NCBI RefSeq assembly: GCF_002355835.1
Contig: NZ_AP017459.1
Location: 310,001-374,000, forward strand
From: Candidatus Endomicrobiellum trichonymphae
GTDB lineage: Bacteria > Elusimicrobiota > Endomicrobiia > Endomicrobiales > Endomicrobiaceae
Length of the DNA: 64,000 nt
Direction: 5' to 3'
Positions 2,821-25,841 of the stretch are shown piece after piece. The position numbers and the translations under genes are program-made. The first letter of the stretch is position 1, and each line of letters begins with the position of its first letter. Below the pieces are notes generated by a model. That model saw only the letters and a program-made list of their open reading frames with translations, did no database searches and had not been told where the DNA came from.

Positions 2821-4161
2821 ATGAAATTATTTGGAACTGATGGCATAAGAGGCGATTCATTTAAATTTCCGTTTGATAATATTACTCTTGGGATTATTGG
2901 CAAATCAATAGCCGAAACTTTGGTCAGTAAAAAAGATATCCTAGTTATACGCGATACTAGAGAGTCCGGAAAAAGAATACAAAAAGAATTAGCCAAAGGA
3001 ATTTTAAGTGCGGGGGTAACGCCGGTTTTTGGCGGCATTATGCCTACGCCTGCTGCATCTTTTCTTATGCAGAGCGGAAAATATTCGGCGGCTGTTGTGA
3101 TTTCGGCAAGTCATAATCCGTATATGGATAACGGAATAAAAATTTTTAATTCAAAAGGGCTAAAAATTGGGGATTTTGTAGAAACAGAAATTGAAAAAAA
3201 AGTAAATAAATATCTTGGTTTAAAAGTTGTTGTTTCAGTCAAAAAAATAAAAGTAGTGGAGAATTCTGAACTCTTAAAATTTTACAAAGAGTTTATTGTG
3301 AGAAATTTTACCGGAAGCGATCTCAAAGGGAAAACTATAGTTATAGATTGCGCAAACGGTGCTTCTTATAAATGTGCTCCTTATGTTCTAAGGAAGCTTG
3401 GGGCAAGAGTTATCGCGTTAAATGTTAAGCCAAACGGTAAAAACATAAATTTAAATTGTGGTGCTCTCCAGCCTGAATATGCCGTAAAAATAGTAAAAGA
3501 ACTTAAAGCGTTCTGCGGATTTGCTTTTGACGGTGATGCCGACAGATTAGTGTGTATTGATGAAAACGGTATTGTAAGAGACGGTGATTATTTCCTTGCT
3601 TCGATGGCATGCTGGCTGAAAAGTAAAAAAAATCTTAAAAACAATATTTTAGTTGCTACAGTTATGACAAACATAGGGTTTTTGCAGGCTATGAAAAGAG
3701 AAAAGATTAAAATAGTATCCGCAAAAGTCGGTGACAGATACGTTATATCCGATATGAAAAAATATAAAGCGGTGCTTGGTGGAGAACAGTCGGGACATTT
3801 TATATTTAAAGATATTTTGGCTACAGGCGATGGACTGTTGAGCGCAGTTATGCTTCTTACAGCATTAAGCGACAAAAACAAAACAATGTTGGAATTTATG
3901 AACGTAATTGAAAAATTCCCGCAGGTGTTTATAAACAAAAAAGTTTCTGTGAGAATTCCCGTTGAAAAACTTTCAGAATCTTATAAACTTATTAAAAGTT
4001 ATGAGAGATCTCTCGGTACAGATGGGCGTATACTCGTAAGATATTCAGGCACGGAAAACCTTTTGAGGGTTATGGTTGAGGGAAAAGAGATAAAAGAAAT
4101 TAAAACAATTGCGAAAAATATAGCGGACAGTATTGAAAAAGAGATTAAATATTATGAATGA
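2821..4161 (+). CDS. glmM: Phosphoglucosamine mutase
   Basis: Converts glucosamine 6-phosphate to glucosamine 1-phosphate on the route to UDP-GlcNAc for peptidoglycan. The 446 residues start MKLFGTDGIRG, a normal start for the family, so ATG 2821 is chosen over the in-frame upstream TTG. Motifs: phosphoserine loop ISASHNP with Ser97, metal loop DGDADR (237-242), sugar-binding GEQSGH (321-326), and the phosphate-binding RYSGTENLLRVM near residue 410. It follows cdaA after one base. The cdaA-glmM pairing is common and links c-di-AMP to wall synthesis. GlmS lies about 1.2 kb downstream. Confidence 0.97.
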   Translation: MKLFGTDGIRGDSFKFPFDNITLGIIGKSIAETLVSKKDILVIRDTRESGKRIQKELAKGILSAGVTPVFGGIMPTPAASFLMQSGKYSAAVVISASHNPYMDNGIKIFNSKGLKIGDFVETEIEKKVNKYLGLKVVVSVKKIKVVENSELLKFYKEFIVRNFTGSDLKGKTIVIDCANGASYKCAPYVLRKLGARVIALNVKPNGKNINLNCGALQPEYAVKIVKELKAFCGFAFDGDADRLVCIDENGIVRDGDYFLASMACWLKSKKNLKNNILVATVMTNIGFLQAMKREKIKIVSAKVGDRYVISDMKKYKAVLGGEQSGHFIFKDILATGDGLLSAVMLLTALSDKNKTMLEFMNVIEKFPQVFINKKVSVRIPVEKLSESYKLIKSYERSLGTDGRILVRYSGTENLLRVMVEGKEIKEIKTIAKNIADSIEKEIKYYE

Positions 4162-8775: not shown

Positions 8776-9195
8776 ATAAACTTAGATGGATTTTTGTTTA
8801 AAAGACTCCAAGATGGCAAGTTCTCTTTTGTATTTTCCCGAATATTGTTATTGGGTATCCGTTTTTCTGAATATTTTTTGTAGTTAATTATATTGTGAGA
8901 TAGAAATGACTTTAGAGCGTGGAATTATCGAAATAAGAAGACATATACATAAAAATCCTGACTAATAAAAGAAAAAAATTATTTGAAAAGAGTACAAGCT
9001 ATATAATAACATCTCATAGTTTGCTTAAGGTGAACATTATTAAAGGTATCGACATAATTAAATAAAATCGCATTTTATATGAATGCGTGAATTAAAGTTA
9101 TTTTTAAATATGAAAAAGAGTATCGTTAGTTTTTCTTTTTGTCTTTTGTTTACAGATGCATTAAAAATGACTTGTATAAAAGGAGAGGTTTTAGA
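8776..9195 (+). pseudogene. M20-family amidohydrolase relic and cas operon upstream region
   Basis: ATG 8906 opens a 19-codon frame ending EIRRHIHKNPD at TAA 8963-8965. The piece IEIRRHIHKNPD closely resembles the extreme N-terminus of M20-type amidohydrolases (hippurate hydrolase or N-acyl amino acid amidohydrolase type). Nothing recognisable follows the stop, so almost the entire gene has been deleted or decayed. The rest of the 420 bases is AT-rich and must hold the cas promoter. I could not find a convincing -35/-10 pair with normal spacing. The ribosome site AGGAGAGG of cas3 is at 9181-9188. Confidence 0.5.
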
Positions 9196-11640
9196 ATGAT
9201 TTCTGAAAAGCAACCACTATTATTTTATGCTCATTTATCTAAATCTAAAGATGATAAAAATAAAAGACAAGAATTAAATACACATTTAACTGAAGTTGCT
9301 GAGATGTCTCAGAAGAATGCTTCAAAAATCGGAATGAGAAACATAGGATATTGTTTAGGATTGTTACATGATTTAGGAAAATATTCTGAATTATATCAAG
9401 ACTATTTATTGGGAGAAAGAGGCGATATTAGCAGAGGAGATATAGATCATTCTACTGCAGGCGCTCAATATTTCAATGAGTTTATTAAAGCGTCAATGCA
9501 GGACGATAATAAATTAAAAAACTTTTTGTCTGAACAAATTGAACTTTGTTGTGTTTCTCATCATTCTGGACTGATTGATATGATTGATATACGTGGAAAG
9601 AACAATTTTGATAAAAGATTGAACAAAAAATATTATTATAAAGAAACTGTCTCGATAGAAGATATAAAGAAAAACATAGAAAAAGACGTTGTGGATAAAA
9701 TAAATAATATTGCCAATAACGACTTATTATATGAAATTGAACAAATCAAAAGCAAAATAGACAAAAATTCTAAAAATGAGATATATAGAACATTTTCATA
9801 CGGAATGCTTGCAAGGTTTTTGTTGAGTTGTCTTATAGATGCAGATCATACAAACAGTGCAGATTTTGAGCGCGGAAAGAAAATTAAAAATAAGCTTGTA
9901 GATTGGAATATAATTTCAGAAAAATTAGAAAAAGCAATAGACGAACTTAATGATAAAAATAAATCTTCTGAAAATATAAAAGAAATAAGAAAGCAGATTT
10001 CTGATGATTGTGCTATTGCCGGACAAACATATCAAAAAGGATGTTATAAACTTGAAGTGCCTACAGGTGGCGGAAAAACACTTGCAAGTTTTAGGTTTGC
10101 TGTTGAGATGGCAAAGAAGTGCAATGCTGGTATTGATAGAATAATTTATTGCATTCCTTTTACTACAATAATTGAGCAAAATGCTAATACAATAAGGAAA
10201 ATAGTTGAAGCAGATAAATCCGATAAAGGGAATATAGTATTAGAACATCATTCTAATATATCTCAAACATCATATGATAAGGGAAAAGAAGAAGAATTTA
10301 ATCCAACAGAACTTTATATGCAAAGTTGGGATATTCCTATTATATTTACGACAAATGTACAGATTTTAGAGGTTCTGTTTGGACGTAGAACTAGTGACAC
10401 AAGGAAACTTCATCAATTGGCAAATTCAATAATTATTTTTGATGAGGTACAGTCGCTTCCAATAAAGTGCGTTCATTTATTTAACAATGCGATAAATTAT
10501 TTAGTTGATTTTTGTAATACTACTGTTGTTTTATGTACTGCAACACAACCTTTATTAGACAATGTAGATCCAGAAAGAGGTTGTTTAAAACTTTCTGAAA
10601 AACCAGATATTATTCAGAATAGAAATTGTGTGTTTGATAGTTTGAAGCGAGTAGAAGTTAAACCTGAAATAAAAGATGTTGATTATACAAGTGAAGAAAT
10701 AGCTTCAAAAGCCGCAGAGTTTGTTAATGATAACGAGAATTGTCTGGTGATTTGTAATACAACAAAATCTGCAAAAGAGATTTTTGAAATTATAAAAGGC
10801 AGAGTGGATTATGAAGTTTATCATCTTAGCGCAAGAATGATGCCAATTCATAGAAAAATTGTTTTAAGAGCAATAAAAAGAAAATTAAATAAGAGAAAAA
10901 AAATTGCAGTTGTCTCTACGCAGGTTATAGAGGCTGGCATTGACATTGATTTTAATTGTGGCATTCGAGCATTGGCAGGATTGGATTCTATAATTCAAGC
11001 GGCTGGAAGAATCAATAGAAATGGAACTTTAAAAACTAATGATGGGAATAATAAAAAGGGCAAACTGTATGTTTACAATTTTAATGAAAATTTAGGTATT
11101 TTAGATGATATTAAGAGAGGAAAAGATACTGCTGAAATTATTTTAAGGAGGCATCCTAATGCAGATTTGTTAGACAATAAAATAATCAAAGATTATTATG
11201 ATGATTTCTTTTATCAAAAAAAACAGCGAAAAGATATGCAATTTTTAATTTGTAATGAAAATACTGAATTGGATTTATTGTCAGAAAACTGTAAGTATAA
11301 TGGTAAATATAATCTTACGCTGAATCAATCTTTTAAAGAAGCTTCAAATAATTTTAAAGTTATAGATAATATTGCAAGCCCTGTCTGCATTGAGATAAAA
11401 AGAGTTCGTAAAATTATTGATAAAATAAATAGTTCTTTTGATTCTAAAGAAAGATATAAACTTATAAAGAAACTTCACAAATATAGAGTTAATATCTATC
11501 CAAGTCAATTTAAAAATTCAACCGCGATAAAACCAATAAGTAATGATTTAGATATTTATAGCATAAGCGATTGTTATTATGATAAAAACTTTGGCATTAC
11601 AGAGGAAGCAGCATTAGATAAAGGAGGTGCATGTGTTTAA
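9196..11640 (+). CDS. cas3: CRISPR-associated nuclease-helicase Cas3 (type I-C)
   Basis: Recruited by target-bound Cascade to unwind and degrade the invading DNA. It is 814 residues long, with an N-terminal HD nuclease and a C-terminal superfamily 2 helicase. HD residues are His30, LLHDLGK (HD at 58-59), DHSTAGA (84-90) and the SHHSGL motif near 119. Helicase motifs: Walker A VPTGGGKT (about 288-295), DEVQ box in IIFDEVQSLP (about 415), motif III CTATQP (about 447), STQVIEAGIDID (about 573) and QAAGRINRNG (about 602). ATG 9196 follows AGGAGAGG, while the in-frame upstream codon at 9139 has no ribosome site. First gene of the seven-gene I-C operon. All catalytic motifs appear intact. Confidence 0.97.
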   Translation: MISEKQPLLFYAHLSKSKDDKNKRQELNTHLTEVAEMSQKNASKIGMRNIGYCLGLLHDLGKYSELYQDYLLGERGDISRGDIDHSTAGAQYFNEFIKASMQDDNKLKNFLSEQIELCCVSHHSGLIDMIDIRGKNNFDKRLNKKYYYKETVSIEDIKKNIEKDVVDKINNIANNDLLYEIEQIKSKIDKNSKNEIYRTFSYGMLARFLLSCLIDADHTNSADFERGKKIKNKLVDWNIISEKLEKAIDELNDKNKSSENIKEIRKQISDDCAIAGQTYQKGCYKLEVPTGGGKTLASFRFAVEMAKKCNAGIDRIIYCIPFTTIIEQNANTIRKIVEADKSDKGNIVLEHHSNISQTSYDKGKEEEFNPTELYMQSWDIPIIFTTNVQILEVLFGRRTSDTRKLHQLANSIIIFDEVQSLPIKCVHLFNNAINYLVDFCNTTVVLCTATQPLLDNVDPERGCLKLSEKPDIIQNRNCVFDSLKRVEVKPEIKDVDYTSEEIASKAAEFVNDNENCLVICNTTKSAKEIFEIIKGRVDYEVYHLSARMMPIHRKIVLRAIKRKLNKRKKIAVVSTQVIEAGIDIDFNCGIRALAGLDSIIQAAGRINRNGTLKTNDGNNKKGKLYVYNFNENLGILDDIKRGKDTAEIILRRHPNADLLDNKIIKDYYDDFFYQKKQRKDMQFLICNENTELDLLSENCKYNGKYNLTLNQSFKEASNNFKVIDNIASPVCIEIKRVRKIIDKINSSFDSKERYKLIKKLHKYRVNIYPSQFKNSTAIKPISNDLDIYSISDCYYDKNFGITEEAALDKGGACV

Positions 11641-12376
11641 TATTCCCAAAAACGCAATAGAGTTTAAAGTGTATGGAAAATATGCATTATTTACTGATCC
11701 AATTACAAAATTAGGCGGAGAAAAATGTTCATATCAAATTCCTACTTATGAGGCAATTAAAGGGATTACAGAGTCAATTTATTGGAAACCGACATTTATT
11801 TGGATTATAGATAAAGTTCGTGTTATGAAGTCTATAGAAATGGAAGCCAAAGGTGTAAGAACTTTAAAGTATCATGGCGTCGTCGGATTATATTACTATA
11901 CTTATCTACGAGATGTTGAATATCAAGTGCAGGCACATTTTGAATGGAATGTTAATGAGTCTAATCTCATACAAGACAGAATAGATGGGAAACATTTTGC
12001 AATAGCAAACCGTTCGCTCGAAAATGGCGGCAGGAGAGATATTTTTATTGGAACTCGCGAGTGTCAAGGATATGTTGAACCTTGTAAATTTGGAGAAGGT
12101 GATAGTGATTATGATAACAATAATTTATTGTCTTTTGGCTCTATGTTTTATAATTTTGGTTATCCAAATGAAACAGGGAAAAAGGAATTAATAACGAGAA
12201 TATGGTTAGATGCCAATATGAAAAAAGGGACAGTTGATTTTAACGATAAAAAGAATAATATAAAAGAAAGAATAGTGAAACCAATGCAACAAGAAAACCA
12301 ATATGTTTTAGATAAGAATATTTTGAAAGTTAATACAGAATATGAAAATATATTTGGAAATATGGAGGTAAAATAA
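11633..12376 (+). CDS. cas5c: Type I-C Cas5 (Cas5c/Cas5d), pre-crRNA endonuclease and Cascade subunit
   Basis: In type I-C systems Cas5 replaces Cas6: it cuts the repeat RNA and holds the 5' handle in Cascade. The product of about 247 residues has YALFTDPITKLGGEK, IPTYEAIKGI and SIYWKP near the N-terminus. Tyr50 of SIYWKP and Lys120-His121 of GKHF fall where the catalytic Tyr-Lys-His triad of Cas5d enzymes is described. GGRRDIFIGTRECQGYV follows. The start is taken as GTG 11633, five bases after AAGGAGG (11621-11627). An earlier GTG at 11627 overlaps that site. It overlaps the end of cas3 by 8 bases and cas8c by one. Confidence 0.95.
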   Translation: MFNIPKNAIEFKVYGKYALFTDPITKLGGEKCSYQIPTYEAIKGITESIYWKPTFIWIIDKVRVMKSIEMEAKGVRTLKYHGVVGLYYYTYLRDVEYQVQAHFEWNVNESNLIQDRIDGKHFAIANRSLENGGRRDIFIGTRECQGYVEPCKFGEGDSDYDNNNLLSFGSMFYNFGYPNETGKKELITRIWLDANMKKGTVDFNDKKNNIKERIVKPMQQENQYVLDKNILKVNTEYENIFGNMEVK

Positions 12377-14385
12377 TGAGTTGGTTTCAACGATTATATG
12401 AGACTTATGGAAATTGTGTTGCCGCACAAGGAGAGTTTGAAATCGCTCCTGTCGCACATACCAATAAAGTTTGTAATATTGAGATAACATTAAATGAAAA
12501 AGCTGAGTTCATAAAAGCTGAGTTCATAAAAGCTGAGTTCATAGAAGCTATAACCCCAATCCCTACAACAGATGATAATAATTGCCTGTGGCCACTTGCA
12601 GTTGATATAAAAACTTATCAAAAAGAAAAAGATAAGCAAGGAAAAGAATTAAAAGTTACATACAAAAAACTGTTGAAAGAATGGTCTGATACCGCTGATA
12701 TAAAAATACAAATAGTAAATAAATATATTCAAAAAAATACATTGATACAGGATTTAGAAAAAAAAGGAATTTTATGGCTCAGCGAAGATGGTAAATTTAT
12801 TGAAAAACCTAAAAAAGATATAACTGATAAGTACAAAATTTTCCAATATGTTAAAAAACAAAAAGATGCCTTTATTAGGTGGATTGTTGATACGGGTGAA
12901 GGACTTAATCGTAATACTTGGGAAGATGAGGCAATTATAGAATCTTGGATAAATTTTAGGAAGCAAAAAGAAAATAAAAAATATAAATCTGAAATTGAAA
13001 AAACTTACAGAAAAATAGATAAAGAAAATAATATTGTGTCAAGATTAACAGATGATAAAATTTGTTACATTTCAGGAGAAATTACTGATTGTATTACAAC
13101 AAATCATCCGTTCGCAAATGGCACATCTAAACTTATAGCAGTTGGAGATGATCTAGTATTCAAAGGAATATTTGAAGAATATTATGAAGCATTATCTGTA
13201 AGTTTTGACGTGTCTCAAAAAGCGCATAATACACTAAAATGGCTTATTTCAAAAGAAAGGGAACAAGCATATCGTAATTATCCTCAAATAATTGTTGCTT
13301 TCACTATAAATGGTAAAAATGGGAATGTAGGGCTGATTTTCGGGGAAGATTTTGTTAAAAGTGCAAAAGGTTATAGGATAGATTTTGAAAAATTTGAAGA
13401 AGACGAAAAAATCGTAAAGACCAGCTTGCAGAGCAGGAAGCACAAAATAGATTTTGAAAAATTTGAAGAAGACGAAAAAATTGTGCTTTTAGAGATGAAT
13501 GCTGCAAGTCCAGGCAGAGCCTGTATAACTTATTATAAAGAACTTTTAGGTTCTCAATATTTAAAAAACATAAAAAATTGGCATAAAAAATATTGTTGGC
13601 AGTTTTTAAAAAGAAAAAATAAAAATAGTCAAAAGAAAGAATATCAATATTTTTGTGGAACACCATCAATAAATACGATAGCTAATTCATATTTTTATAA
13701 AAAAGATAAGTATTCGGCTGAAAAAAGCGAACAGAATATAAAAAGAAAGCTGATAAGAGACTTAATGCCAAGTGTTTTAGAAAATAAAAATATTCCAGAG
13801 TATATAGAAAAACATTTTATTGAAAAGGCTTCAAATCCTGTTGTCTTAAATAATATTCAATGGAAAACAATCTTAAGCATTGCTTGTTCAATATATAAAG
13901 GCAATCATTTATATTATGATGAAAATAAAAAAGAGGAGGATTGTTTAATGAGTGTTGACGAAAACTGCAAAGACAGGAACTATCTTTATGGAAGGTTATT
14001 GGCTGTGATTGATGATGCTGAAAAAAGTGCGTTGTTAAAACAAAATAAAGAAAATAGTAACGCAAAAGAGACAATAAGATCAACTAATGCTCAAAGACTG
14101 ATGCGTCAGTTTTCTATAAAACCATTTGAAACTTGGAAATTTTTATATGAAAAATTTAATGATGCTTATAAAAAAAGGCTAAGTGGGGATTGGATAGATA
14201 AAAGAATAGCAGATATTAAAGATAAATTTACTTCAATAGAAGAATTTGAAAATAATTTAAAATTAACAGGTTTATATTTGTTAGGTTATTTTCATCAATT
14301 AAAAACGATAGAAAATGAAAGAGGAGCTGCGATACAAAATAAAAATAAAAAAGAAAAGGAGTTTTCAAATGACACTGCTAAGTAA
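12376..14385 (+). CDS. cas8c: Type I-C Cascade large subunit Cas8c (Csd1)
   Basis: Large subunit of the type I-C surveillance complex, expected to read the PAM. The 669-residue protein starts MSWFQRLYETYGNC and carries Csd1 signatures such as CYISGE, HPFANGTSKLI, AHNTLKWL and the C-terminal SGDWIDKRIADI. It is somewhat longer than many Csd1 proteins, partly because of two in-frame internal repeats: three copies of AEFI(K/E) at 12499-12543 and a duplicated IDFEKFEEDEKIV at 13378 and 13447. Both keep the frame, so the protein is probably functional but may be still diverging. Its ATG overlaps the cas5c stop and its ribosome site GGAGG lies within cas5c. Confidence 0.95.
   Translation: MSWFQRLYETYGNCVAAQGEFEIAPVAHTNKVCNIEITLNEKAEFIKAEFIKAEFIEAITPIPTTDDNNCLWPLAVDIKTYQKEKDKQGKELKVTYKKLLKEWSDTADIKIQIVNKYIQKNTLIQDLEKKGILWLSEDGKFIEKPKKDITDKYKIFQYVKKQKDAFIRWIVDTGEGLNRNTWEDEAIIESWINFRKQKENKKYKSEIEKTYRKIDKENNIVSRLTDDKICYISGEITDCITTNHPFANGTSKLIAVGDDLVFKGIFEEYYEALSVSFDVSQKAHNTLKWLISKEREQAYRNYPQIIVAFTINGKNGNVGLIFGEDFVKSAKGYRIDFEKFEEDEKIVKTSLQSRKHKIDFEKFEEDEKIVLLEMNAASPGRACITYYKELLGSQYLKNIKNWHKKYCWQFLKRKNKNSQKKEYQYFCGTPSINTIANSYFYKKDKYSAEKSEQNIKRKLIRDLMPSVLENKNIPEYIEKHFIEKASNPVVLNNIQWKTILSIACSIYKGNHLYYDENKKEEDCLMSVDENCKDRNYLYGRLLAVIDDAEKSALLKQNKENSNAKETIRSTNAQRLMRQFSIKPFETWKFLYEKFNDAYKKRLSGDWIDKRIADIKDKFTSIEEFENNLKLTGLYLLGYFHQLKTIENERGAAIQNKNKKEKEFSNDTAK
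12499..12543 (+). repeat. Three tandem 15-bp units inside cas8c
   Basis: The unit AAAGCTGAGTTCATA occurs three times in a row without mismatch, giving three AEFI pentapeptides. A perfect triplet of 15-bp units indicates recent replication slippage. Because 15 is a multiple of three, the cas8c frame is kept. Confidence 0.9.
13378..13481 (+). repeat. 35-bp direct repeat inside cas8c, 69 bp apart
   Basis: The 35 bases from 13378 recur exactly from 13447. The offset of 69 bases is 23 codons, so the reading frame survives and IDFEKFEEDEKIV appears twice. The bases between the copies are not repeated afterwards, which suggests a duplication with later divergence or an insertion. Confidence 0.9.
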
Positions 14386-15220
14386 AAAAATTGATTTTGT
14401 AGTTATATTTAAAGTAAAAAGTGCTAATCCTAATGGAGATCCTCTTAATGAAAATATGCCGAGAACATTGGCAGATGGGATTGGTGAAGTAACAGATGTA
14501 TGCATTAAAAGAAAAATTAGAAATAGACTATTAGATATGAATAAAGATATTTTTGTTCAATCTGATGATTATAAAAAGGATAAATATAGTTCTTTACAAG
14601 AAAGAGCAAACAAAGAAATAGGTGAAATAAGTAAAACTTCTGATTTTTCTACAAAAGCTTGCGAAAAATGGATGGATGTTCGTGCTTTCGGACAAGTTTT
14701 TGCTTATGAAAAAGGAAGTTCTATTGGGATCAGGGGTCCAGTGACAATTCGAACTGCTTTTAGCAAAGAACCGATAATTGTTATAAGCGACCAAATAACA
14801 AAAAGTGTTAATGGTAAAAGCAATAAAAAAGGCAATGATTCAGATGATGAAGGAATGGCATCTGATAGGATGGGAATGAAACATTGGATAAGAGAAGCGA
14901 TATATGTTTTTTATGGAGCTATGAATCCTCAATTGGCTGAGAAGACTGCTTTTACTGATGAAGATGCTAAAGACATAAAAGATGTATTACCAAAATTGTT
15001 TGAAAAAGATGCTTCTTCGGCGCGACCAGAAGGAAGTATGGAAATATTAAAAGTTATTTGGTTTGAACATAATTCACCGGCTGGACAATACTCTTCTGCA
15101 AAAGTTCACGGTTCAATTAAAATTGACAATAGTGGCAATATAGAAAATGAAAAAGATTTAGAAAATGGAACTGTGGAATCAATAAAAGGTTTAAAGGCAG
15201 AAATAATTCAAGGTTGGTAA
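14369..15220 (+). CDS. cas7c: Type I-C Cascade backbone protein Cas7 (Csd2)
   Basis: Forms the helical backbone of Cascade along the crRNA. The 283-residue product starts MTLLSKKIDFVVIFKVKSAN and continues with the family signature PNGDPLNENMPR, then RKIRNRL, VRAFGQVFA and IGIRGPVTIRTA, and ends with WFEHNSPAGQYSS. ATG 14369 is preceded by AAAGGAG and overlaps the 3' end of cas8c by 17 bases. An in-frame upstream codon at 14315 would add a lysine-rich tail with no family support. Cas4 starts four bases after its stop. Confidence 0.95.
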   Translation: MTLLSKKIDFVVIFKVKSANPNGDPLNENMPRTLADGIGEVTDVCIKRKIRNRLLDMNKDIFVQSDDYKKDKYSSLQERANKEIGEISKTSDFSTKACEKWMDVRAFGQVFAYEKGSSIGIRGPVTIRTAFSKEPIIVISDQITKSVNGKSNKKGNDSDDEGMASDRMGMKHWIREAIYVFYGAMNPQLAEKTAFTDEDAKDIKDVLPKLFEKDASSARPEGSMEILKVIWFEHNSPAGQYSSAKVHGSIKIDNSGNIENEKDLENGTVESIKGLKAEIIQGW

Positions 15221-15224
15221 AATA

Positions 15225-15863
15225 ATGTATTGTGAAGACGATTTGCTTCATATAAGAGGAGTACAGCAATTATCTTATTGTAAGCGAAGATGTGCCTTGC
15301 TTTTTATTGAACAGCAATGGTCAGATAATTTCTTTACGGCAAAAGGAATTGTTATGCACGATAAAGCTCATGTAGAAAAAATTGAGCATAAAAAAGGCGT
15401 AGTTATTGAACGTGATATTTATCTTAAGTCTTATGAGCTTGGATTGATAGGGAAAAGCGATGTTGTGGAGTTTCACAGATCCGGGAATAAATTAATTCCA
15501 TTTCCTGTTGAATATAAAAGCGGTAAGGCAAAATCTGACAATGTAGATAAAGTTCAGCTTTGTGCGCAGGCTTTGTGTCTTGAAGAAATGATGAATGTTA
15601 CAATAGAAAGTGGCGCTATATTTTATGGGAAAACTCGCAATCGGCTAAATGTTGAATTTAATAAGTCTTTAAGAGAAGAAACTTTTGCTCTTGCTCAGGA
15701 ATTTCACAGCTTAGTTGATAGCAGAGAAACTCCAAAACCGGAGTATTCGAAGAAATGTTACAATTGTTCGTTTGAAGAATTATGTCTGCCGGAAATATTT
15801 GACAAACAAAAATCTGTAAAAAAATACTTAAAAAAAATTGTAAACAATGAAAAAACTATTTAG
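15225..15863 (+). CDS. cas4: CRISPR-associated exonuclease Cas4
   Basis: Works with Cas1-Cas2 to trim prespacers and select those with a correct PAM. The 212-residue protein has the Cas4 iron-sulfur layout: CKRRC at residues 19-23 and three clustered cysteines in KKCYNCSFEELC near the C-terminus. The RecB-type nuclease motif is VEYKSGK, about residue 95, with GKSDVVEF before it supplying the acidic residue. The frame overlaps cas1 by 17 bases, so the two are probably translated together. Its presence fits a system that selects spacers by PAM. Confidence 0.95.
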   Translation: MYCEDDLLHIRGVQQLSYCKRRCALLFIEQQWSDNFFTAKGIVMHDKAHVEKIEHKKGVVIERDIYLKSYELGLIGKSDVVEFHRSGNKLIPFPVEYKSGKAKSDNVDKVQLCAQALCLEEMMNVTIESGAIFYGKTRNRLNVEFNKSLREETFALAQEFHSLVDSRETPKPEYSKKCYNCSFEELCLPEIFDKQKSVKKYLKKIVNNEKTI

Positions 15864-16881
15864 CACGCTTTATGTTTCAACTCAAGGGGCATATATATCA
15901 AAAGAGCGTGAAAATATTGTAGTTAGTTTACAAAGCAAAGAATTATTTAGAGCGCCAGTTCATCTGATTAATTCAGTTGTTTGTTTTGGAAATATTATGT
16001 GTTCGCCTTTTCTTTTGGGGTTATGTGCTGAGAATAATGCTTCTGTAAGTTACTTTACAGAATATGGGAGGTTTATTGCGAAAGTGCAGTCTCCGGTTTC
16101 AGGAAATGTACTTTTAAGAAAACAGCAGTATAAATATTCAGATGATGGAAAATTTTGCCTTGAAACAGCCCAATCAGTATTGCTTGGAAAGTTGAGTAAC
16201 TCAAGAACTGTAATAAATAGAGCTTTAAGAGATCACGAGGATAAAATATCTGATTCTGATAAACTAAAACAAGTGTCTGATGGTTTACGCAGGGCAATTG
16301 CTAATGTTTTCAATGCTGAAAATGTAGATGTATTGCGGGGTATGGAAGGCGATGCTGCAGTTGCTTATTTTAGTGTCTTTAATAAACTAATATTGAATCA
16401 TAAAGAAGAGTTTTTTATGCCCGGGAGAAACAGACGACCTCCTAAGGACAGAGTTAATTGTCTTCTTTCGTTTGTGTATACTTTATTAGTGCATGATGTT
16501 TCGTCAGCTTTAGAAGGAGTTGGATTAGATCCTCAAGTTGGATTTTTGCATAAAGACAGACCCGGCAGACCAAGTTTATCTTTAGACATAATGGAGGAGT
16601 TTAGATCTGTAATAGCCGACAGATTAGTTCTTACTTTAATAAATCTATCTCAAGTTAATGCCAATGGTTTTTCAGAATCTCCAAGCGGCGGTGTGATAAT
16701 GGATGATGAAAATAGAAAGATTGTTATAGATGCATATAGAAAGAGGAAAGAAGAAGAAATATTTCATCCTTTTTTCAAAGAGAATATACATATAGGGCTT
16801 TTGTATCATGCACAGGCTTTACTTTTTGCCAGATATATAAGAGGCGATATTGATGCATATCCGCCATTTATTTGGAAATAG
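15847..16881 (+). CDS. cas1: CRISPR integrase Cas1 (type I-C)
   Basis: Catalytic subunit of the spacer integrase. The 344 residues match the type I-C Cas1 family. The three expected metal ligands are visible: Glu in GMEGDAAVAYF (about 164), His in FLHKDRPGRPSLSLD (about 234) and an acidic cluster in DIMEEFR (about 246). ATG 15847 lies inside the end of cas4. The nine bases before cas2 include no terminator. All catalytic residues are intact, which fits the large, uniform array downstream. Confidence 0.96.
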   Translation: MKKLFSTLYVSTQGAYISKERENIVVSLQSKELFRAPVHLINSVVCFGNIMCSPFLLGLCAENNASVSYFTEYGRFIAKVQSPVSGNVLLRKQQYKYSDDGKFCLETAQSVLLGKLSNSRTVINRALRDHEDKISDSDKLKQVSDGLRRAIANVFNAENVDVLRGMEGDAAVAYFSVFNKLILNHKEEFFMPGRNRRPPKDRVNCLLSFVYTLLVHDVSSALEGVGLDPQVGFLHKDRPGRPSLSLDIMEEFRSVIADRLVLTLINLSQVNANGFSESPSGGVIMDDENRKIVIDAYRKRKEEEIFHPFFKENIHIGLLYHAQALLFARYIRGDIDAYPPFIWK

Positions 16882-16890
16882 GATTATATT

Positions 16891-17181
16891 ATGTTGGTTT
16901 TGATAAGTTATGATATAAGTACTATTGATGCAGGAGGACAAAAGCGGTTAAGGAGGGTTTCTAAAGAATGCTTGGATTATGGACAGAGAGTTCAGTATTC
17001 GGTATTTGAATGTGAAGTTGACCCTACTCAATGGATTTTTTTAAAGGATAAATTATTGAATACTGTAAACTTAAAAAAAGACAGTATAAGGTTTTATATG
17101 CTTGGTTCAGATTGGAAAAGAAAAATAGAACATTATGGTTGTAAAAAACCTGTTGATTTACATGGAACGTTGATAATATAA
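16891..17181 (+). CDS. cas2: CRISPR-associated protein Cas2
   Basis: Structural partner of Cas1 in the integrase complex. The 96-residue length and the ferredoxin-like fold pattern are typical. The start MLVLISYDIST carries the conserved Asp, RRVSKECLDYGQRVQYSVFEC is the family core, and the C-terminal end KPVDLHGTLII matches type I-C Cas2. It is the last gene of the operon. The array leader begins directly after its stop. Confidence 0.96.
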   Translation: MLVLISYDISTIDAGGQKRLRRVSKECLDYGQRVQYSVFECEVDPTQWIFLKDKLLNTVNLKKDSIRFYMLGSDWKRKIEHYGCKKPVDLHGTLII

Positions 17182-17356
17182 GAGTTATAAAGGAGTATAA
17201 CGGTGCGAATGGTATGTAATTGATTGTTGTTTATTGGCATCGCACATTGAAAAATGAATAGAAATTAAGAATATGTCAATGGTTTTGTAATAAAAATGGG
17301 TGATTCGCATAAATTGTGAAAAATGTGTTGAATTTTTAATTATTTTTTGTTTTGCT
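17182..17356 (+). promoter_or_regulatory. CRISPR leader
   Basis: These 175 AT-rich bases lie between the cas2 stop and the first repeat and contain no gene. Position next to the cas1-cas2 end and repeat orientation (GAAAT end pointing away) make this the leader, so spacers near 17.4 kb should be the newest. A clear -35/-10 pair could not be settled by eye. Confidence 0.8.
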
Positions 17357-20300
17357 GTCGCGCCCCGTGTGGGCGCGTGAATTGAAATGTATGTTGTGAG
17401 CGTTCCGCCGTTCACTGCATGTGTCGCGCCCCGTGTGGGCGCGTGAATTGAAATTTTTTGGGATCGGCCTGATTGCGGTACAGTGGTTGTCGCGCCCCGT
17501 GTGGGCGCGTGAATTGAAATTTACTGAAGCCCAAAACTTCGAGCAGAAAATGCAGGTCGCGCCCCGTGTGGGCGCGTGAATTGAAATCGAAATAGGTTAT
17601 CGTACAAATAATGAGCAAATTGTCGCGCCCCGTGTGGGCGCGTGAATTGAAATGAAGTATGCTAGTCTTGGTAGTTCAATGTTCGGAGTCGCGCCCCGTG
17701 TGGGCGCGTGAATTGAAATCATCATAGTGCTTGTGAGTGTTTGCTTTGTTTTTGTCGCGCCCCGTGTGGGCGCGTGAATTGAAATAGTATTTTATATCTA
17801 TTCCGCCCTGTGCTTACGGTGTCGCGCCCCGTGTGGGCGCGTGAATTGAAATTTTAGCTTCGCAGGACTATGATTTTGACGACGACGTCGCGCCCCGTGT
17901 GGGCGCGTGAATTGAAATCACTTATCAGGGCAATATATAACAGTTGCGGCATGTCGCGCCCCGTGTGGGCGCGTGAATTGAAATCAGCTGAACGAAAGAT
18001 ATACACTAAGGTTCAACGTCGCGCCCCGTGTGGGCGCGTGAATTGAAATTTGAGAATGTTGACTAAATTTCGTGGGTTATCTGGTCGCGCCCCGTGTGGG
18101 CGCGTGAATTGAAATGGAAGCCATAATAGGTAGAGTTGTGGGTGCGGTAGTCGCGCCCCGTGTGGGCGCGTGAATTGAAATCTCAAAAGACTGCTTGAGA
18201 GCGGAAACGTTTCTGGTCGCGCCCCGTGTGGGCGCGTGAATTGAAATTAATACATTCGTATCCTACTCCGTTGGCTAAAGTCGCGCCCCGTGTGGGCGCG
18301 TGAATTGAAATCTCCTGCTAAACCTCCCAACATCCCGCCTCCTCCGGTCGCGCCCCGTGTGGGCGCGTGAATTGAAATGGAACGCAAACGCACGCAAGAA
18401 AAGAACTTGACGGTCGCGCCCCGTGTGGGCGCGTGAATTGAAATACAACAGACTTGAGGATATTTACCCAACAATGTTTGTCGCGCCCCGTGTGGGCGCG
18501 TGAATTGAAATATGTTATGGTCTGCGATTTTGGCTTTAAATGCTTGTCGCGCCCCGTGTGGGCGCGTGAATTGAAATCAGTTCTCTACAGGCAACATGTG
18601 ATTTGCCTCATGTCGCGCCCCGTGTGGGCGCGTGAATTGAAATCTGTTGCATAACTGCACCACAATACCTGCGTAATGTCGCGCCCCGTGTGGGCGCGTG
18701 AATTGAAATGTTTCTGTAGATGTGTTTCGCTTTTTCAAATGTGTCGCGCCCCGTGTGGGCGCGTGAATTGAAATCTTTCAGAATAATCAGGGATATTTAC
18801 TATCAAAAAGTCGCGCCCCGTGTGGGCGCGTGAATTGAAATAAAATGTTATAATAAGACAAGGCACAGACACTTCGTCGCGCCCCGTGTGGGCGCGTGAA
18901 TTGAAATCGTCTGTTTGAGGCAATATGCCCAGTTCTTTCTCGTCGCGCCCCGTGTGGGCGCGTGAATTGAAATATTAGTTTCTAAATCTTTCTGCAGTGC
19001 TTCAAATGTCGCGCCCCGTGTGGGCGCGTGAATTGAAATCGATTGGAAAGATACAGCTCTGGACTTTATAGGGTCGCGCCCCGTGTGGGCGCGTGAATTG
19101 AAATGTCCCATTTCTCCTGCCCGCCCTCGTAGCCTTTGTCGCGCCCCGTGTGGGCGCGTGAATTGAAATCTGCAAAGCTGTAAACACAGAAGCCAAATGG
19201 GCAGTCGCGCCCCGTGTGGGCGCGTGAATTGAAATTTCATATCCTTCTTTTGGTGCAATAAAGAATTGCGTCGCGCCCCGTGTGGGCGCGTGAATTGAAA
19301 TCATCTCTAGTGCAAACAGTGCGTTTTCGTTTACCGTCGCGCCCCGTGTGGGCGCGTGAATTGAAATTACAGCTTTCTGATACAAAGCATTTATAGACTG
19401 CGTCGCGCCCCGTGTGGGCGCGTGAATTGAAATCCTAAACAACACTTCGTTTCTTTTCATTCTCTTTGTCGCGCCCCGTGTGGGCGCGTGAATTGAAATC
19501 CTCTTCAGCTGTATTTTCAAAATCAAACAATTGGTCGCGCCCCGTGTGGGCGCGTGAATTGAAATTATTTGCCTGCTTTCAGCGTAAGTAATAGAAGGAG
19601 TCGCGCCCCGTGTGGGCGCGTGAATTGAAATCAATACAGATACATCCGTACCTTTCTCAAATCTCGTCGCGCCCCGTGTGGGCGCGTGAATTGAAATTTA
19701 CATAATCTGCGTAAGCTAACAGCCTGTAATGTCGCGCCCCGTGTGGGCGCGTGAATTGAAATTTGACAAATAAATAATAATATGCTTATGTGGTGTAGTC
19801 GCGCCCCGTGTGGGCGCGTGAATTGAAATTAAATATTCCGCATACATTTCGTAATAATCGTTAGTCGCGCCCCGTGTGGGCGCGTGAATTGAAATCAATA
19901 GTATCTCCATCCTCGCTCAATCCCATCTTGTCGCGCCCCGTGTGGGCGCGTGAATTGAAATCTGTGCTCTGAACATTTTGCCATCTTCTCTCTCTTGTCG
20001 CGCCCCGTGTGGGCGCGTGAATTGAAATAGCTATAAAATTATATAACCGCTGAACTCTTCCAGTCGCGCCCCGTGTGGGCGCGTGAATTGAAATAACAGT
20101 GTTTGTATGATTTCTCAAAATCTTAAAGTCGCGCCCCGTGTGGGCGCGTGAATTGAAATAATCCATTGGTCTCTATCCAGTATAGGTTTATTAGTCGCGC
20201 CCCGTGTGGGCGCGTGAATTGAAATCGCACGTAGCTTCGGCAAATGCGATTTTAGGTGTTGTCGCGCCCCGTGTGGGCGCGTGAATTGAAATTTTAAAGG

Positions 20301-20556
20301 CATTAAACTTGTCAAATTTTGACATAGTCGCGCCCCGTGTGGGCGCGTGAATTGAAATGCGAGTGCTTTTCCAACCGTGCGAGAAAAGATTAGTCGCGCC
20401 CCGTGTGGGCGCGTGAATTGAAATCTGCTGAATCTGAAGCAACGTATCTAAATAATAAGTCGCGCCCCGTGTGGGCGCGTGAATTGAAATTCGTGGCAGC
20501 CCCATTTCCTCATTTACTTCTGCGGTCGCGCCCCGTGTGGGCGCGTGAATTGAAAT

Positions 20557-20589
20557 GCGCCCCGTGTGGGCGCGTGAATTGAAATTTTC
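20557..20589 (+). repeat. Spacer-sized interval made of repeat sequence
   Basis: Between complete repeats 20525-20556 and 20590-20621 lie 33 bases: the last 29 bases of the repeat (starting GCGCCCCGTG) plus TTTC. The length is that of a normal spacer. Among all spacers I listed, only the one at 22211-22245 begins TTTC. Confidence 0.9.
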
Positions 20590-23500
20590 GTCGCGCCCCG
20601 TGTGGGCGCGTGAATTGAAATCTCTATCAAGTGGTGCATATAACGCATACATTTGGTCGCGCCCCGTGTGGGCGCGTGAATTGAAATTGCTCTTTCTCTT
20701 GCAGTTCAGCTTGTTTTATTATGTCGCGCCCCGTGTGGGCGCGTGAATTGAAATTTTAATGAGTTTATGTTTTAGTAAAAGTAGAAGCGTCGCGCCCCGT
20801 GTGGGCGCGTGAATTGAAATTATAATATGAGTGTTCGCGGCGTTCCACATCAACAGTCGCGCCCCGTGTGGGCGCGTGAATTGAAATAGAATGCAGTTTA
20901 ATGTATTGTGTGTCCGTTCCTGTCGCGCCCCGTGTGGGCGCGTGAATTGAAATAGGTACGGGAGGCAAAAATGACGCGGGAAGAGTAGTCGCGCCCCGTG
21001 TGGGCGCGTGAATTGAAATTGCTTTAAACCTTAATTTCAGCACTGATAAAAGGAGTCGCGCCCCGTGTGGGCGCGTGAATTGAAATCGTTATCTCCATAT
21101 ACAGGTATTCAAATATTAAGTCGCGCCCCGTGTGGGCGCGTGAATTGAAATAATCTTGAAAAGCCCTGTAAGATTAGATATGTAAAGTCGCGCCCCGTGT
21201 GGGCGCGTGAATTGAAATTTGACAAAATTGCCGACTTTTCTGATAAATTTCGCGTCGCGCCCCGTGTGGGCGCGTGAATTGAAATAGGATTTTGTTTCCA
21301 TTGGTGAAGACCTTTCAGAAGTCGCGCCCCGTGTGGGCGCGTGAATTGAAATAGCCAATCGGCTGTGAAATTATTGTACCGCAAGAGTCGCGCCCCGTGT
21401 GGGCGCGTGAATTGAAATCTGTAGAATCGGACGCAATAGCTTTCCACTGGACAGTCGCGCCCCGTGTGGGCGCGTGAATTGAAATGGATGTTATAACATA
21501 CTTAACTATCAGAGAAAAGGTCGCGCCCCGTGTGGGCGCGTGAATTGAAATTCCTATATGGAAGTTATATCCTAAAGTGTTGCTGTGTCGCGCCCCGTGT
21601 GGGCGCGTGAATTGAAATAACGACAACAGAAAAGACAAGTTGACTTTTTTTGTCGCGCCCCGTGTGGGCGCGTGAATTGAAATCGCAAAAGTGATATTAA
21701 CTGTTCCTCTTCCGCCAGTCGCGCCCCGTGTGGGCGCGTGAATTGAAATCTCTTGAATTTATTGTAAATTTAATCAGACGTAATGTCGCGCCCCGTGTGG
21801 GCGCGTGAATTGAAATCAAATGCTTCAGGATTTCAACCCTTCGAATCCCTGTCGCGCCCCGTGTGGGCGCGTGAATTGAAATCCAGATCGCTTGATAGCC
21901 AAATGGCACATTATTAGTCGCGCCCCGTGTGGGCGCGTGAATTGAAATTATTATGCCTCGTACCGCATATCAGCAAGGTATCGTCGCGCCCCGTGTGGGC
22001 GCGTGAATTGAAATGATTAGGCACAAAGAAAAAATGTGTGTATACATGTCGCGCCCCGTGTGGGCGCGTGAATTGAAATGCGTACGAGCGTGAGCAGGCT
22101 CGTTTGAACGAGGTCGCGCCCCGTGTGGGCGCGTGAATTGAAATAATAATGCTCCAGTACCTTGAGGAACATTTAAATGTCGCGCCCCGTGTGGGCGCGT
22201 GAATTGAAATTTTCGTAGTGCGGAATAATCCGTGAACAGAATTCTGTCGCGCCCCGTGTGGGCGCGTGAATTGAAATAGGAGCAGATGGTGTGCCTACTT
22301 TCTGGTAAAGAAGTCGCGCCCCGTGTGGGCGCGTGAATTGAAATGTATTTGCCGATATTTTTCAATCAAGGTGCTGGCGTCGCGCCCCGTGTGGGCGCGT
22401 GAATTGAAATTACACCTAAACATCGTTCAGCCGCTTCCGCTTTGTCGCGCCCCGTGTGGGCGCGTGAATTGAAATATATTGACAAGTGCGATTGTAATAA
22501 TACATTGTGGGTCGCGCCCCGTGTGGGCGCGTGAATTGAAATATTTAGTTTGGAAGGAAAATCCTGTAACTGGTGAGTCGCGCCCCGTGTGGGCGCGTGA
22601 ATTGAAATCTTTCAGAATAATCAGGGATATTTACTATCAAAAGTCGCGCCCCGTGTGGGCGCGTGAATTGAAATTGGAGGAAATGTTCAGAGGGCGGTGT
22701 CCCCAAATGTCGCGCCCCGTGTGGGCGCGTGAATTGAAATTTTTAAAAGTATCCATAAAGATATTCTGGAGGATGTCGCGCCCCGTGTGGGCGCGTGAAT
22801 TGAAATTTTAAAATAATCAGTGAATAACTGGTCCCCTTCTAGTCGCGCCCCGTGTGGGCGCGTGAATTGAAATTGATAAGCGTAAGAATTGGTATGTGAG
22901 AGAGAATGTCGCGCCCCGTGTGGGCGCGTGAATTGAAATCTGACGGAAAACCGAAAGTAGACGGACAGATATGGTCGCGCCCCGTGTGGGCGCGTGAATT
23001 GAAATTGGTACCACGGATGAGCAGCGCCCGCAACAGAAAGTCGCGCCCCGTGTGGGCGCGTGAATTGAAATGCAGATGGAACCGTCGGACGCTGTCAATT
23101 TTGAGGTCGCGCCCCGTGTGGGCGCGTGAATTGAAATAGATAGATATGTCAAAATTTGACAAGTTTAATGCGTCGCGCCCCGTGTGGGCGCGTGAATTGA
23201 AATATTCCCTGTGCCTGTAAGAAACTTCGTGCCAGGTCGCGCCCCGTGTGGGCGCGTGAATTGAAATAAGCCCTTGACAAATAAATAAAAATATGATTGT
23301 AGTCGCGCCCCGTGTGGGCGCGTGAATTGAAATATTTATTTTCAGGTGCTTGTACCTCTGGTACCTTGTCGCGCCCCGTGTGGGCGCGTGAATTGAAATT
23401 GCAAAAAGGTTTTAACATATCCAAAACAAATTTGTCGCGCCCCGTGTGGGCGCGTGAATTGAAATCGTTACCCACTCAATATTCGAGTTAAATGCTACTT

Positions 23501-24986
23501 GTCGCGCCCCGTGTGGGCGCGTGAATTGAAATAGGCGCAATATTATTCCGCTGGCAACGTTGCAGAGTCGCGCCCCGTGTGGGCGCGTGAATTGAAATCG
23601 AAATAAAAAACAAAAGCACAGCGGAGGCAAAAAGTCGCGCCCCGTGTGGGCGCGTGAATTGAAATCGCTCAATTACAATTTAACGATTATAGATTTTCCG
23701 TCGCGCCCCGTGTGGGCGCGTGAATTGAAATGGAACGGTAAAAAAACGGTTCGTTTTCACCGTAGTCGCGCCCCGTGTGGGCGCGTGAATTGAAATAAAC
23801 TGTGCAACACGCATTCCAGGGTAGCACTTCGTCGCGCCCCGTGTGGGCGCGTGAATTGAAATTTTGTATTGGAAATCTTTAGCTTTGCCTTCTTTAAGTC
23901 GCGCCCCGTGTGGGCGCGTGAATTGAAATTTATCGCCAGCGTCCACCAATGTTTTAACATCGCCGTCGCGCCCCGTGTGGGCGCGTGAATTGAAATAAAT
24001 CCTGACATATCTAACTCCTCTTCCACTGACGTCGCGCCCCGTGTGGGCGCGTGAATTGAAATAACTATGAATAGATATTCCGACGAATTGTTTGAGTCGC
24101 GCCCCGTGTGGGCGCGTGAATTGAAATCAGAAAAGAAGCCTTGATAATATCGTAGAAGGGCTTGTCGCGCCCCGTGTGGGCGCGTGAATTGAAATAACTG
24201 CCACACCGTATACACTGCGTATATAATCAGTCGCGCCCCGTGTGGGCGCGTGAATTGAAATTATTTTCGTAGTTGATATCGTGTTTCAGTTGATGGTCGC
24301 GCCCCGTGTGGGCGCGTGAATTGAAATGTTTGATTTTAGTAGATATGTTTCACCTGCCATTGTCGCGCCCCGTGTGGGCGCGTGAATTGAAATATAATCT
24401 TTATCCTCGTTTGCCGTATGAAAATCCAGTCGCGCCCCGTGTGGGCGCGTGAATTGAAATTTAATCATAAGCATTTTAGGACATTTATTGAGAGGTCGCG
24501 CCCCGTGTGGGCGCGTGAATTGAAATCTTGTACCTTCAATTTCTGTGCAACGAGCGCCTCGTCGCGCCCCGTGTGGGCGCGTGAATTGAAATGATCCCGG
24601 TATCGAGCGACGGCAGAGCGCCTGTGTCGCGCCCCGTGTGGGCGCGTGAATTGAAATTATTTTCTAAGAAATGTTCCTGATTTTCTTTTCTGTCGCGCCC
24701 CGTGTGGGCGCGTGAATTGAAATAATGAATTCACGCAACTGCCGTTCGAATCGTATCGTCGCGCCCCGTGTGGGCGCGTGAATTGAAATAAATCCTCGTA
24801 TGCTTTTGCTACTGTAATTACAGTCGCGCCCCGTGTGGGCGCGTGAATTGAAATCATTAAAAACAACTGTTTTATATACTCCTCTGAAGTCGCGCCCCGT
24901 GTGGGCGCGTGAATTGAAATATTCCAATTAGTTTCCTTTATATTTGCCTCTGCCGTCGCGCCCCGTGTGGGCGCGTGAATTGAAAT

Positions 24987-25086
24987 TAATATTAAGTGTA
25001 CAGGATTTGCCCTGTTTATTGTCGCGCCCCGTGTGGGCGCGTGAATTGAAATTAATATTAAGTGTACAGGATTTGCCCTGTTTATT
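24987..25086 (+). repeat. Two identical neighbouring spacers
   Basis: The 34-base spacer at 24987-25020 recurs exactly at 25053-25086 with one repeat between them. This is either a tandem duplication of a repeat-spacer unit or two captures of the same fragment. Confidence 0.95.
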
Positions 25087-25841
25087 GTCGCGCCCCGTGT
25101 GGGCGCGTGAATTGAAATAAGTCCCCTTGACTTTTAAATAAAAATATGATTGTCGCGCCCCGTGTGGGCGCGTGAATTGAAATATTGCCTACATCAATTA
25201 TTATGCTGTTGTTGTGGTCGCGCCCCGTGTGGGCGCGTGAATTGAAATAGCGATGTTATGATCTCTATATACAGGTATTCCCGTCGCGCCCCGTGTGGGC
25301 GCGTGAATTGAAATAAATTAAGACTGTACAATTCGTTGAGGAGAGTATGTCGCGCCCCGTGTGGGCGCGTGAATTGAAATAGACGGGACAGCAGATAGCC
25401 AATGTGCCAGACTTGTCGCGCCCCGTGTGGGCGCGTGAATTGAAATTGCTCTGAATACTCCGTGCTGGCTTAAAGGTGCAGTCGCGCCCCGTGTGGGCGC
25501 GTGAATTGAAATTGACAATTATCTACAGATTACGGGAGTTGACGGGTCGCGCCCCGTGTGGGCGCGTGAATTGAAATTCTCAGATACGCTTGAGAAAGGC
25601 AAAGAACTTCCGTCGCGCCCCGTGTGGGCGCGTGAATTGAAATTTGACGAAGTAATTGTTGATAAATTTGCTGTTGAAGTCGCGCCCCGTGTGGGCGCGT
25701 GAATTGAAATACAAATTTGGCAGAGCTTTAGACTTACATTTGAAGTCGCGCCCCGTGTGGGCGCGTGAATTGAAATCAATCCCTGATTTACAAGGCTCTC
25801 TTCCAACTTGTCGCGCCCCGTGTGGGCGCGTGAATTGAAAT

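Follow-up and report, generated by a model that had tools for sequence, protein, structure and literature searches.

A complete type I-C locus with a 129-repeat array

We analyzed a 64,000-nucleotide stretch of the Candidatus Endomicrobiellum trichonymphae genome (hereafter the window), which carries a complete type I-C cas operon (9139–17181) and a long CRISPR array, both on the + strand, as are all window features described below. Pfam and NCBIfam models matched across full domains in seven cas genes that lie directly upstream of the array: cas3 (9139–11640), with the HD motif, Walker A and DEVQ in its translation, cas5 (11627–12376), cas8c/csd1 (12376–14385), cas7/csd2 (open reading frame 14315–15220), cas4 (15225–15863), cas1 (15847–16881) and cas2 (16891–17181). 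Subtype cut-offs were passed by Cas1c, Cas5c and Cas7/Csd2; Cas8c scored 199 bits, below its cut-off of 219, yet nearly the whole model was covered. None of the seven genes appears broken. Between cas2 and repeat 1 lies an AT-rich leader (17182–17356), and the leader side of a CRISPR array is its young end.

The array itself (17357–25841) comprises 129 identical 32-nt repeats (GTCGCGCCCCGTGTGGGCGCGTGAATTGAAAT) and 128 spacers, with a modal spacer length of 34 nt (78 spacers); the remaining spacers are 32 nt (two), 33 nt (20), 35 nt (27) or 36 nt (one) long. Several spacers are related to one another. Spacers 22 (18775–18809) and 80 (22609–22642) differ only in an additional 3' A, present in spacer 22 (35 nt) and missing from spacer 80 (34 nt), which suggests that the same protospacer was acquired twice and trimmed differently. 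Spacers 116 (24987–25020) and 117 (25053–25086) are an exact tandem duplicate, and a tandem duplicate spacer is also present in a congeneric array (G025, C5:13600–13744). Neither spacers 22/80 nor spacer 116 had an exact match in IMG/VR. Spacers 45 (20293–20326) and 88 (23138–23171) come from opposite strands of a single protospacer region with the near-palindrome GTCAAAATTTGAC, and 27 nt are common to both. The sequences of spacers 37 (19763–19797), 90 (23268–23301) and 118 (25119–25151) resemble one another (TTGACAAATAAAT...) and seem to derive from homologous sites in related elements. The same genome includes three small contigs (L042, L043 and L044; contigs C2–C4, 5.0–5.8 kb) that carry mostly small lipoprotein-like open reading frames and may be plasmids, because L044 encodes a Rep-like protein; none of the array spacers matched any of the three.

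Spacer 49 has the sequence of the array's own repeat

Spacer 49 of the 128 (20557–20589; GCGCCCCGTGTGGGCGCGTGAATTGAAATTTTC) consists of repeat positions 4–32 followed by TTTC, and is adjoined by an intact repeat upstream (20525–20556) and another downstream (20590–20621). A sequence-only reading of the window had described it as a spacer-sized, 33-base element made of the last 29 repeat bases plus TTTC between complete repeats, and this description is exact. Genuine acquired spacers have a normal length and sit between intact repeats, and so does spacer 49, which is one of the 20 spacers of 33 nt in an array whose spacers range from 32 to 36 nt.

No other spacer resembles it. When spacers were compared with the repeat on both strands, the longest stretch shared by any spacer other than 49 was 9 nt. 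Two repeat cores within 30 bases of each other occur in the window at spacer 49 only, and the short-spacing pattern matched twice in the window and never in 100 dinucleotide shuffles, so the feature is not a product of chance. Spacer 49 also has one feature of a self-targeting spacer, an exact match elsewhere in the genome (33/33 at 22182–22214), and an ungapped exhaustive scan with up to five mismatches found no other spacer that matches its own genome. Each of the 129 repeats matches spacer 49 at 29–33 of its 33 positions, in agreement with the earlier claim that a crRNA from this unit would match all 129 repeats over 29 bases. The observation is real and rare.

A candidate source within the array

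The match at 22182–22214 is the only other 33/33 match to spacer 49 in the genome, and we treat it as the candidate source protospacer. It joins the last 29 nt of repeat 74 (22179–22210) to the first 4 nt of spacer 74 (22211–22214), the boundaries that the sequence-only reading had proposed on the ground that just one other spacer begins with TTTC. That premise also proved correct: in the array, and with a check of the whole genome, the only TTTC start besides that of spacer 49 belongs to spacer 74 (22211–22245). This spacer is farther from the leader, and the candidate source thus lies downstream of spacer 49, on the older side, as growth from the leader end requires.

The attribution to repeat 74 and spacer 74 is nonetheless weak, because it rests on four bases: given the base frequencies at spacer starts, chance predicts 0.8 TTTC starts in the full set of 128 spacers and 0.5 in the 79 that are older. 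For 30% of spacers, the first four bases are shared with some downstream spacer, and the repeat–TTTC junction is also present in a congeneric array. By sequence, this source is only compatible with spacer 49, which could equally derive from a since-lost spacer, a sibling chromosome or a foreign repeat.

The usual type I-C PAM is TTC. The sequence-only reading had named this motif, and the array supports it through one protospacer: spacer 71 (22015–22047) matches a microvirus contig from IMG/VR (L062) at 31 of 33 positions, and the protospacer is preceded by TTC (5' flank GTATTC). This protospacer is the only direct PAM evidence for the array (n=1). Other PAMs reported for type I-C are CTT, TTT and TTN (PMC8482600). 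In a blastn search of phage records, spacer 71 gave one 29-nt match to a rodent-gut microvirus, which carries no PAM information; a second match from that search was dropped as not spacer-like. Spacer 71 targets the antisense of the microvirus major capsid gene, a candidate host–virus link.

At the candidate source, the PAM-position flank is GTC (22179–22181), the three bases that the earlier reading had named, and the same GTC precedes the match in 129/129 repeats. The flank on the other strand is TAC, so TTC is found at neither end. Given the TTC at the spacer 71 protospacer, the GTC flank of the repeats is a non-canonical PAM. A genuine acquired spacer is expected to come from a PAM-flanked protospacer, and the candidate source is not one, a point that applies if the source was not foreign. 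The antisense strand of the repeat holds two TTC sites, each followed by 22–27 nt of repeat. Antisense captures should therefore target the array from behind a proper PAM and be suicidal, and a survivor is accordingly expected to resemble spacer 49.

Spacer-sized repeat captures are rare in type I-C arrays

We searched 84,980 species genomes of bacteria and archaea for pairs of I-C repeat 3' cores spaced more tightly than in a normal unit, and read all 33 stretches that emerged; close kin of the window's genome may be absent from this set. The scan detects only captures in sense orientation that retain the last 13 nt of a CGTGRATTGAAAY repeat. The irregular arrays consisted mostly of truncated repeats or very short spacers, plus some degenerate repeats, and nearly all of the irregular in-array units had 5–9 or 50–146 nt between intact repeats rather than a spacer length; these units are slippage or deletion products. 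Spacer-sized repeat-like units appeared in just two places in the scan, the window (33 nt) and an array of Gammaproteobacteria bacterium Hainich-H32 (L012), whose spacer 34 (minus strand; 34 nt) is a different I-C-type repeat. Because no second copy of that captured repeat was found in its own genome, it looks like the capture of a foreign CRISPR repeat.

Closer relatives gave no further case: none was found among 168 normally spaced repeat pairs from three congeneric genomes with the same repeat family, and the short-spacing pattern had no match in 340 other genomes of the phylum. The repeats of one congeneric I-C array (G025:C5; 143 spacers or more) drift from one end to the other, from GTCGCG to ATCGCG and from TTGTGTA to TTGTATA. 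Narrow phrase searches of open-access full texts returned no repeat-derived spacers, which does not prove their absence from the literature.

Origin of spacer 49

The best reading, and one that we consider probable, is that spacer 49 was captured by Cas4–Cas1–Cas2 from CRISPR-repeat DNA, the donor most likely being the array itself or a sibling chromosome's copy of it. The captured piece would have been 33 nt long, running from three bases inside a repeat to four bases into the next spacer, and would have been integrated as an ordinary repeat–spacer unit when the array had about 80 units; here we infer both the action of Cas1–Cas2 and the source molecule. Capture is the most parsimonious account because it requires one event, yields the correct length and intact flanking repeats, and leaves a product with almost no parallels among rearranged I-C arrays. 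The earlier claim of self-integration is thus supported as far as the capture of array-type DNA is concerned, and is only compatible with the data in naming spacer 74 as the source. Against capture counts the candidate source's lack of a TTC PAM at either end. In addition, the sole self-match of the array falls within array DNA, which makes up about 0.75% of the genome, so that one has to invoke survivorship bias, a hotspot at this locus or a foreign source. Survivorship would explain this location, and the absence of other self-matching spacers fits a purging of harmful self-spacers.

One alternative, which we regard as unlikely, is a foreign repeat as the origin of the prespacer, whether from a mini-array on a phage or plasmid, from a solitary-repeat RNA anti-CRISPR (Racr) or from DNA taken up from a related strain; spacer 49 would then simply record a mobile element bearing a copy of the host repeat. 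Phages do carry solitary repeats that mimic those of their hosts, type I-C included (PMC10651486), competence genes are kept in Endomicrobium relatives (PMC8809381), and the 34-nt spacer of L012 is a different I-C-type repeat with a single copy in its gammaproteobacterial genome. A viral contig (L063) has a small array with repeats that differ from the window's at 2–4 positions; besides this difference in sequence, these repeats too are preceded by GTC. The exact 29-nt sequence was not found in 2.9 million IMG/VR contigs, and spacer 49 matches its own array's repeat perfectly over those 29 nt. The L063 array (IMGVR_UViG_3300033141_005122, 3636–3878) is of I-C type with spacers of about 30 nt, and no cas gene was found in the 5 kb examined. 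We think it very unlikely that spacer 49 is the memory of a CRISPR-inhibiting mobile element bearing a repeat mimic, such as an RNA anti-CRISPR or viral mini-array; if it were, the spacer would be usable only where the element has a TTC flank, because the host repeats read GTC.

A rearrangement is quite unlikely in our judgment; here a template switch or a pair of deletions would have left a 5'-truncated repeat, joined to the first four bases of a spacer starting with TTTC, between two repeats. CRISPR arrays do rearrange (PMC8047081), and 5'-truncated repeats directly after a full repeat recur in three of the surveyed I-C arrays (L011, L013 and L016). Spacer 74 also continues with GT, the start of the next repeat, as do 6/127 spacers at this position; this two-base microhomology, at what would be the right junction of spacer 49, would be predicted by a template-switch model and speaks against capture. 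A left microhomology would exist if the lost spacer had begun with GCG, as 2/127 spacers do. The sequence-only reading had offered slippage as an alternative, but such an event would need two junctions and another copy of a TTTC spacer, and would have to arrive at 33 nt by coincidence, whereas the surveyed rearrangements left 5–9 or 50–146 nt between intact repeats. Furthermore, spacers 48 and 50 are unique, and the neighborhood contains no partial duplicate.

An assembly or amplification artefact, with two reads wrongly joined within repeats, is highly improbable: misassembly is common in repeat arrays, but here 129/129 repeats are perfect, the unit is spacer-sized, the array lies inside a single 1.11-Mb contig of a 99.6% complete genome, and a wrong join of identical repeats would produce whole units rather than a repeat cut at position 4. 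Two further candidates were dropped, namely that the element works as a Racr-like regulator (it is a single unit among 129, with no evidence of a promoter) and that it is a degenerate repeat followed by a 4-nt spacer, which does not account for a loss confined to GTC in a unit of normal total length.

How a repeat-directed spacer could be tolerated

Self-killing by a Xanthomonas type I-C system has been reported with 27 matching bases behind TTC (PMC8406640). Since every repeat in the array offers at least 29 matching bases, length gives spacer 49 no protection. Instead, the GTC flank may protect the repeats from it.

A further safeguard could act on the RNA. The Cas5 cut site lies at the base of the repeat stem-loop. 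Spacer 49 RNA alone is predicted to refold the repeat stem (–12.6 kcal/mol), and when the upstream handle is included, the stem is extended by A–U and U–G pairs to –14.3 kcal/mol, compared with –14.4 for a genuine repeat; in a predicted fold of a longer transcript, the repeat that follows is a further possible pairing partner of the embedded hairpin. Processing of type I-C pre-crRNA is attributed to Cas5 in PMC10651486, which cites Nam 2012 and Garside 2012 on this point. Because spacer 49 RNA refolds the repeat hairpin, carrying nearly the whole repeat stem-loop and 3' handle, Cas5 would be expected to cut inside it. Cleavage would yield one stub that has an 18-nt hairpin where its guide should be, and another product whose guide is 4 nt long, so in this model cleavage should destroy the guide and provide a second, RNA-level safeguard. 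The sequence-only reading had argued that the survival of spacer 49 implies strict PAM discrimination. This does not follow, as Cas5 should remove a guide with a foldable hairpin and handle. Spacer 49 is probably without immune function, and given the GTC flank and the predicted Cas5 cleavage, it should be harmless.

Significance and comparison with known systems

Spacer 49 poses an extreme test of CRISPR self-avoidance, in that each repeat is a potential target, matched perfectly in the seed and at 29 or more bases overall. It suggests an RNA-level safeguard in which a guide that contains a hairpin is cut by the system's own processing enzyme, and it illustrates survivorship: with two TTC PAMs on the other strand of the repeat, only non-PAM captures like this one should persist. 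The wider lesson is modest, and spacer 49 itself is probably inert.

Three kinds of known element invite comparison. Truncated or slipped I-C repeats, as in L011, L013, L014, L016, L038 and others, likewise place a partial repeat between intact repeats, but those units are not spacer-sized, unlike spacer 49. Spacer 34 of L012 is, like spacer 49, a spacer-sized I-C-type repeat inside an I-C array, although the repeat captured there differs from that of the array and occurs just once in the genome. Like spacer 49, Racr and viral solitary repeat units place a copy of the repeat where repeats do not normally lie, and cleavage of spacer 49 is predicted to leave a handle and hairpin without a guide, similar to a Racr-like decoy. 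However, such units are encoded by viruses or mobile elements, behind a promoter and outside an array, whereas spacer 49 sits as a spacer within a bacterial host array, without phage context and as one unit per 129.

A fourth comparison is with self-targeting spacers, which match host DNA as spacer 49 does and are expected to be lethal with a functional PAM and crRNA; self-spacers are estimated to make up about 6% of spacers according to PMC8616872, which cites Shmakov 2017 for this figure. Spacer 49 differs from them in that its target is the repeat itself, with 129 near-identical copies, and in that the signal for processing its crRNA lies within the spacer. It is a variant of this known class, best explained as an inert self-capture by the adaptation machinery.
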